From assembly GCA_029240055.1 (NCBI GenBank), contig JARBTT010000007.1:1-37675 (forward strand): a stretch of DNA of 37,675 nt. The letters run 5' to 3'. Below the pieces are notes generated by a model that was given only the letters and a program-made list of their open reading frames with translations, searched no databases and was not told the origin of the DNA. The stretch is from Anaerosinus sp. Lineage in GTDB: Bacteria > Bacillota > Negativicutes > JARBTT01. Each line of letters begins with the position of its first letter. The first letter of the stretch is position 1. A program made the position numbers and the translations under genes. Positions 5,279 through 7,381 of this stretch are shown in pieces.

Positions 5279-7222
5279 TTACTCCTCACGCACTAATAAT
5301 TTTTGAAATTTATTGATTTGTTCATTTAAATTCATAATTACACTCGTACTAAATGTAAAATATTTATGCATCAACTTACAAATTTCACTGTTTTTCAAAG
5401 AAATAATAGTTACATCTCCTATTACCGCCTCAGCGTGGATAGAACTTTCTCGATTATCAAAAATACTTTCAAAACTTATGATCTGACCAGCTTGCAAAAC
5501 TTCAATTATGCTTGAGCAACCATTACTGGCTTTACGACTAATTTCTACATTACCACTAAAAACGATTAATAATTTTTCTTGTTCCATTCCTTCACCAATG
5601 ATACTATCGCCTTCAACGTAGTATTCACTAGTCGCACTATTCGCCAATTCTGCAATGACGTTTTGAGACAACTTAGAAAATACATCAATGGTTTCAAAAA
5701 AATGCATACGTTCCTGTTGCTCGGTATTATAATCAACATCCGCTGCGAGCACTTGCTCAATACTTGGCATCTTAACTTCATAGACTGCAATCGTAGGTTT
5801 CTGAACAATCTGACGCAATACTGCTAAATAACCTTGCTGTAATAACGCAATTTGTTTTTCTGTGAAACTTGTTTTATTGTAAACAAACTCCATTTCTAAT
5901 CCATTAGCTGTCATCCTAAAATAAATTCCCAGATCATTATTACAATAATCAAAGGAATTCACTGCGACTGGTTTTACCCCAAAGGTCGTCTCTACATCCG
6001 TATACCGCTGACCAATTCCAAAACTATGAAAATTCAAGAAATGATGAAATAAAGGTTTTTCCATCTTGCTAAGTTCTTGTAATTCATTCAACGAGCAGAA
6101 ACTATATGGTTGTGACACCATAAGTTGCAACTGTTGCTTCTTAATCAACTCTTCTACTGACATATTAATCGGACAAGTAATACGTATCAACATAACATTG
6201 ACGATACTTGCAACATCTTCGATATTTTCCATACGCGCACTCCGATTAGATAATACGACCCCAAATACGACATCATTGGTTCTATTATACCTTTGTAGCA
6301 TAATGCCCCAAGCTGTTTGTAGCAAAGCTACCATAGTTGCATTATTTCGTGCAACCTGCTTGATCGATTCATTTAGCTTACGATCAACATTCATTATACT
6401 AACAGCTTGACTATATGGCAAATCAGAATGTTTGTATCCAGGTAATTTGATGTTAATTGGTAATTTTGTCAATAACTTTTCCCAATATTGGATTGCCGGC
6501 CTTTTATCTTGCTCACCGCGTTTTTCTAGATATTGACTAAAAGAAAAATCTTTGGCATTCAACATTTTTGCTTTTAACGAATTCGTTTCTTGGTTTTTAA
6601 ACATATTTGCAAAAATTAACCCAAAATCCCATCCATCAGCGATCATCTGTGGCTGGGCAATCAAAACAGCATATTCTTTGGTTCTAGTATGAAAAATACC
6701 AATTCGAATTAGACGATCACCTTCCAAATCAAAGCCACGCCGTCTATCTGCTATCATAATATTTTCAAGAGTCTCATTCACTTTATCAACCGCTAAGTTG
6801 GATAAATCATGAAAGCGGATTTCTGCACTGCGTGCTTTTAAAACCACTTGTACTGGTTTTTCAATAGCTCGATAGCAGATTGCAGTACGTAAAATAGGAT
6901 ACTCGCCTATTAGACGATCTATATGATCTATCAATTCTTGTGGTTCAATAAACCCACCAACTTTAAACAACGCTTGGATATAAAAATCCGCTGAAACGAT
7001 CTTATCGTTGGAAAATAGCCACCCCTGGCTTTCTGTTAACGGTAGGATGTCTTCAATATTATTGCTATAACGAAATAAAATTTTATTCAACTCTTGTTCA
7101 GCCAAATATTGCACTGTAAACGTTTCAGTTTTTCTTACAGGCTGTGGTCTGACCATTTGTGAAGCAGAATATATCATAGCATTATTATTAAAAACGCCTT
7201 TACTGCCATCTTGCAATCCCAT
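5279..7222 (-). CDS. Condensation-superfamily (NRPS C-domain-like) protein fused to a C-terminal cNMP-binding domain
   Basis: C-domain hallmarks ILPLTESQGWLF, GEYPILRTAI, NATMVALLQTAWGIMLQRYNRTNDVVFGVVLSNR, IVNVMLIRI; C3 HHxxxDG replaced by PQMIADG. C-terminus FSKLSQNVIAELANSATSEYYVEGDSIIGEGMEQEKLLIVFSGNVEI reads as a cyclic-nucleotide-binding fold. RBS GGAGGAATAAGAGC-ATG. Confidence 0.8.
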   Translation of the reverse strand: MGLQDGSKGVFNNNAMIYSASQMVRPQPVRKTETFTVQYLAEQELNKILFRYSNNIEDILPLTESQGWLFSNDKIVSADFYIQALFKVGGFIEPQELIDHIDRLIGEYPILRTAICYRAIEKPVQVVLKARSAEIRFHDLSNLAVDKVNETLENIMIADRRRGFDLEGDRLIRIGIFHTRTKEYAVLIAQPQMIADGWDFGLIFANMFKNQETNSLKAKMLNAKDFSFSQYLEKRGEQDKRPAIQYWEKLLTKLPINIKLPGYKHSDLPYSQAVSIMNVDRKLNESIKQVARNNATMVALLQTAWGIMLQRYNRTNDVVFGVVLSNRSARMENIEDVASIVNVMLIRITCPINMSVEELIKKQQLQLMVSQPYSFCSLNELQELSKMEKPLFHHFLNFHSFGIGQRYTDVETTFGVKPVAVNSFDYCNNDLGIYFRMTANGLEMEFVYNKTSFTEKQIALLQQGYLAVLRQIVQKPTIAVYEVKMPSIEQVLAADVDYNTEQQERMHFFETIDVFSKLSQNVIAELANSATSEYYVEGDSIIGEGMEQEKLLIVFSGNVEISRKASNGCSSIIEVLQAGQIISFESIFDNRESSIHAEAVIGDVTIISLKNSEICKLMHKYFTFSTSVIMNLNEQINKFQKLLVREE

Positions 7223-7330
7223 GCTCTTATTCCTCCGATATCTAAACTGCCAAAATTAACAAATATTTTTTTATGATACTTCATTTTACCACTAAATGCC
7301 GTTTGAACAAATAAAAAATTTTTCCTATAA

Positions 7331-7376
7331 ATAATAAATCTGTATGAATAGCAATGCATCCATACAGATTTATTAT
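7331..7376 (-). terminator. Terminator-like hairpin between the DUF3006 gene and the C-domain/cNMP gene
   Basis: Perfect 16-bp stem ATAATAAATCTGTATG / CATACAGATTTATTAT with 14-nt loop. Confidence 0.65.
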
Positions 7377-7381
7377 TTATA

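Follow-up and report, generated by a model that had tools for sequence, protein, structure and literature searches.

A condensation domain joined to a cNMP-binding fold in Negativicutes: a possible regulatory scaffold derived from peptide synthetases

The locus in Anaerosinus sp.

The window, that is, the whole stretch of 37,675 nucleotides analyzed from Anaerosinus sp., encodes on its minus strand a protein of 647 amino acids, here called C-CBD (5279..7222), in which a condensation-like domain is combined with a domain of the cNMP-binding fold. The gene was defined by its open reading frame, its Pfam matches, and the recurrence of the family in other genomes. It starts with ATG, and a GGAGGA ribosome-binding site can be read directly from the sequence at 7231..7236 of the same strand, bearing out the single open reading frame proposed in a preliminary description of this DNA, which did not name the strand. 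The full-length AlphaFold2 model, built from an alignment of 41 family sequences, reached a pLDDT of 77 and a pTM of 0.72. Its first 53 residues (7064..7222, minus strand) form a variable N-terminal extension predicted to be disordered (pLDDT<50), where the model places a low-confidence helix at residues 31-48.

Upstream of C-CBD are found a DUF3006 gene, a gene for an MBL-fold protein, and a MazF-like gene. An AT-rich inverted repeat, aataaatctgtatg...catacagatttatt, lies between the DUF3006 gene and C-CBD (window 7330-7380); it looks terminator-like by eye and is absent from the terminator-scan listing. On the other side, 32 bp past C-CBD and on the same strand, follows a gene for an AMIN-amidase_3 protein and then one for a GerM-type lipoprotein. 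None of this context is conserved among the fetched relatives. A conserved link to the amidase was ruled out, given that an amidase gene lies near only one other locus of the family (L049), where it is not adjacent. No partner-switching genes stand beside C-CBD in the window.

A role as a component of a defense system was considered and rejected, as the window protein has no PADLOC match. In the same search, the cNMP-binding part of one relative, L034, gave only weak matches to CNB-TIR effectors (E=5e-4 and 1.5e-3).

The condensation domain and its eroded motif

Residues 57-487 (5762..7054, minus strand) constitute the condensation domain, which matches PF00668 with E=5.6e-52 and 177 bits, above the Pfam cut-off and over profile positions 2-448 of 456. 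The best solved relatives of this part by sequence are bacitracin synthetase 3, SrfA-C, and TycB (E=5e-49 to 2e-39 against the PDB), and the condensation domains of SrfA-C and TycB are also the top Foldseek matches of the full C-CBD model. These structural matches, with an rmsd of about 8-20 A and a TMq of about 0.4, were used for fold assignment only, the high rmsd probably being due to the placement of the two lobes.

Compared with the LCL/DCL-like condensation domains of these nonribosomal peptide synthetases (NRPSs), C-CBD is the same in its fold, its LRT motif, and its overall sequence, but it lacks the HHxxxDG motif, stands outside any assembly line, and is fused to a cNMP-binding fold. 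The loss of the catalytic motif had gone unnoticed in the preliminary description. Aligned to the NHHILLDGW of BacC, the window protein reads PQMIADG at residues 191-197 (6632..6652, minus strand), keeping the Asp-Gly pair and carrying Gln192 in place of the second histidine. A census of 100 family members found the first histidine in none and the second in three, glutamine being the commonest residue at the latter position (71/100); the aspartate is kept in 44 members and the glycine in six.

The domain is an orphan, as had been claimed: a profile search of the 84%-complete assembly found no PF00668 domain other than that of C-CBD, and a hidden NRPS in this genome was discarded on the same result.

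Altered motifs are known from other proteins of this type. According to a review, the X domain of glycopeptide-antibiotic NRPSs is a non-condensing C-type domain with the motif HRxxxDD that recruits proteins, and ORF18 from streptothricin biosynthesis is an active C-type enzyme with HQxxxDM (PMC11546977). C-CBD shares with the X domain a C-type fold with an altered motif; however, the X domain resides within an NRPS, recruits P450s, and has no sensor domain, whereas no NRPS is present at the C-CBD locus. Since HHxxxDG is eroded both in the window protein and across the family, catalysis by the condensation domain of C-CBD is unlikely. Some weak or altered activity is conceivable, given the conservation of the glutamine, the Asp-Gly kept in the window, and the precedent of ORF18.

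The C-terminal cNMP-binding fold

The second domain spans residues 497-646 (5285..5734, minus strand), with a Pfam core at residues 534-620 that matches PF00027 (cNMP_binding) with E=1.8e-9 and 37.9 bits, the cut-off being 27.5. Modeled alone with AlphaFold2, the C-terminal 160 amino acids reached a pLDDT of 88 and a pTM of 0.80, and Foldseek matched this model to PKG, PKA-R, CRP, and GlxR with query TM values of 0.60-0.78. The sequence relatives of this part are likewise PKG and CRP-type proteins. Profile searches and models therefore agree with the preliminary description on the identity of both domains. It was also right that no helix-turn-helix (HTH) follows: the chain ends in a single helix after the fold in the AlphaFold2 models, no Pfam HTH match was obtained, and an ordinary Crp regulator was ruled out on this basis. 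A QxLW motif is conserved at the C-terminus.

The position of the phosphate-binding cassette, located by alignment to the CRP of M. tuberculosis, corresponds to residues 583-600, SFESIFDNRESSIHAEAV (5423..5476, minus strand). In the window protein, Ser583-Phe584 replace the Gly-Glu pair of the cassette, and Ser593-Ser594 its Arg-Thr pair. Across the family, asparagine occupies the glycine position (583) in 95% of members and Glu584 is kept in 55%; the arginine is not conserved in the profile alignment. Due to these replacements, a classical cAMP or cGMP ligand is not expected, the residues that would support such binding being missing from the sequence. The domain hence shares its fold with the sensor domains of CRP/FNR proteins and the regulatory domains of PKA and PKG, but differs from them in its cassette and in the lack of an HTH.

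The mycobacterial acetyltransferase Pat consists of a CNB domain and a GNAT domain, where the cAMP-binding domain gates the acetyltransferase and the catalytic residues are retained. In both Pat and C-CBD a CNB fold is joined to an acyltransferase module, and a weak NCBIfam match was found; however, this module has the GNAT fold in Pat and the condensation-domain fold in C-CBD, and the order of the domains is opposite. Among the relatives of C-CBD, one member of 527 amino acids (L054:8471-10054) has no CNB part.

Distribution of the architecture

Any match to the protein was found in 127 of 383 sampled Negativicutes genomes. Counting as full-length those matches that extend past residue 600, and thus cover both domains, C-CBD-type proteins occur in about 110 of the 383 genomes among the matches listed, and most of the remaining matches come from NRPS condensation domains. 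The full-length members belong to four families of Negativicutes, mainly Selenomonadaceae (Selenomonas, Anaerovibrio, Quinella, and rumen MAGs); genome G246, also from the Negativicutes, is Selenomonas ruminantium S137. Of 399 genomes sampled evenly across the phylum, six had full-length matches, all of them Negativicutes. The recurrence of the same architecture in about 110 genomes rules out that C-CBD is an artefactual fusion of two genes during assembly, a concern raised in the preliminary description.

When GTDB genomes were scanned with an alignment restricted to closer sequences, 79 loci were returned; the search patterns were derived from Selenomonadaceae-type sequences and would miss distant members. 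These loci are titled Selenomonas, Anaerovibrio, Quinella, Selenomonadaceae, Selenomonadales, or, in older naming, Veillonellaceae. The window protein as sole query gave no matches in the scan of genome contigs. Tandem duplicates of C-CBD were observed in several loci (L031:7079-10880, L038:8869-12552, L039:8688-12424, L127:6117-9800, and L136:6079-9815). No description of the family was found in the open-access literature.

Partner-switching genes in Selenomonadaceae

In Selenomonas and Anaerovibrio, C-CBD is encoded in an operon together with an RsbU-like phosphatase with dCache, HAMP, and SpoIIE domains, an RsbV-like STAS protein, and an RsbW-like HATPase_c_2 kinase. It thus shares an operon with all three components of RsbU/RsbV/RsbW modules, but is not itself among their described components. 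Neither this gene context nor the spread of the family across the class was visible to the preliminary description. Among 39 fetched neighborhoods, STAS proteins were found in 11, SpoIIE-type phosphatases in 11, and HATPases in nine. In the separate scan, 18 of the 79 loci have at least one of the phosphatase, STAS, and HATPase genes, or a co-occurring gene of cluster 16, in the same uninterrupted operon-like run, and the other 61 have no partner-switching linkage. This linkage is confined to Selenomonadaceae and absent from the window locus and most rumen MAG loci. The gene order varies by clade, with, for instance, the phosphatase upstream in Anaerovibrio and the STAS gene downstream in Selenomonas.

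Seven genomes picked for carrying the linkage hold 3-6 STAS and 4-9 SpoIIE matches each; with so few of these genes per genome, their adjacency to C-CBD by chance should be rare, with the caveat that related loci are not independent of each other. No sigma factor was recognized among the genes listed at the partner-switching loci; some partner-switching modules are known to act on outputs other than a sigma factor (PMC8256260).

Several other features were observed around the family. The Selenomonas operon L071 starts with a MatE transporter fused to a HATPase_c_2 domain (L071:3617-5371), and in three loci the STAS gene is followed by a gene for a conserved protein of about 207 amino acids that has no Pfam match (L071:10244-10867, L073:10702-11328, and L084:10217-10882). 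Other family members adjoin GGDEF or histidine-kinase genes, the former including genes for GGDEF or response-regulator-GGDEF proteins at L060:5524-8115, L066:4585-5889, and L067:1431-2843. A gene for an SbmA/BacA-like ABC transporter, identified from the L039 member, lies near C-CBD in L035:8590-10299, L039:12449-14161, and L049:11040-12761, and an unusually long flagellin-domain protein of 976 amino acids is encoded directly after C-CBD in L046:10878-13808.

Origin and selection

In a maximum-likelihood tree, a branch supported at 100/99 separates 42 condensation domains of the family from a limited outgroup of 18 NRPS condensation domains, indicating a single origin of the C-CBD condensation domains. 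With midpoint rooting, the earliest branch is L034 (genome G299), followed by the window protein. L034 carries the motif PHITFDG, in which a histidine and the Asp-Gly are kept, and it is the only family member adjacent to an NRPS, flanked on one side by an NRPS with a PP-binding protein and on the other by a phosphopantetheinyl transferase. That the deepest member retains this motif inside an NRPS cluster fits a birth of the family in such a cluster, with loss of the motif afterwards.

Whole-gene dN/dS values of six close pairs of relatives range between 0.07 and 0.16, and the ratio is low both for the condensation part and for the last 150 residues. Both domains of C-CBD are under purifying selection among these relatives.

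Proposed role and alternatives

The explanation put forward here, which we regard as about evenly balanced between right and wrong, is that C-CBD is a regulatory protein linked, in Selenomonadaceae, to partner switching, and that its NRPS-derived condensation domain now acts as a binding scaffold, probably without catalysis. The protein would be cytoplasmic, and its C-terminal domain would have the CRP/PKA-R-type cNMP-binding fold. Since the motif was lost while selection was retained, the two-lobed condensation domain may serve as a scaffold for a partner protein, a carrier-bound ligand, or a small ligand, with no formation of peptide bonds. The C-terminal domain, in turn, would sense a ligand other than classical cAMP or cGMP, or mediate assembly, and might thereby alter the posture or the oligomeric state of the condensation domain. 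In Selenomonadaceae, C-CBD may act as an input or an output of a circuit with the RsbU-type phosphatase, the RsbV-type STAS protein, and the RsbW-type kinase, an interaction suggested by their operon linkage. In the window organism, where C-CBD stands apart from any partner-switching operon, it would act in trans; with no such neighbors there, its role is one that we infer. A broader proposal is more tentative and may well prove incorrect: that a single conversion, at the root of a class-wide family, turned an NRPS condensation domain into a sensing or effector part of a partner-switching system, with a CNB fold that reads a non-cNMP ligand.

Of the two readings offered in the preliminary description, a sensor using the condensation domain as a scaffold fits better, and an allosterically regulated acyl or aminoacyl transferase is weakened by the erosion of HHxxxDG in the window protein and across the family. 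Such an enzyme, with a carrier protein or CoA as its acyl donor and glutamine in place of histidine, and gated by the C-terminal ligand, would agree with the Asp-Gly kept in the window, the frequent glutamine, the activity of ORF18 (PMC11546977), and the histidine and Asp-Gly of L034 within its NRPS cluster. It is nevertheless unlikely in view of the lack of the first histidine in all 100 members, of the glycine in 94, and of the aspartate in 56, of the absence of an NRPS from the window genome, and of neighbors in Selenomonadaceae that are regulatory rather than biosynthetic.

The genes downstream of C-CBD in the window would suit another function, that of a scaffold for envelope or amidase regulation in this lineage, and the link to partner switching would then be a later recruitment in Selenomonadaceae, to which it is indeed confined; the members beside GGDEF or histidine-kinase genes are also compatible with it. 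This possibility is equally doubtful, as its context is not conserved, with the one non-adjacent amidase as the sole recurrence. Far less probable still is a functionless, decaying remnant of an NRPS cluster that has been lost: the protein is an orphan with a degenerate motif in a genome without NRPS, but the intact reading frames in about 110 genomes and the low dN/dS of the six pairs rule out a pseudogene.

Work on condensation domains has dealt almost exclusively with their catalytic role in assembly lines. A family found in about 29% of the genomes sampled from the class, in which the motif is lost and selection is kept, would show the reuse of this fold for regulation. It also cautions annotators of genomes that a Condensation match by itself is no evidence of a nonribosomal peptide pathway. 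Selenomonas ruminantium and Anaerovibrio lipolyticus are cultured species in which binding and contacts with the partner-switching proteins could be tested and, if the partner-switching reading is true, peptide-synthetase machinery would have been turned into a signal transducer.
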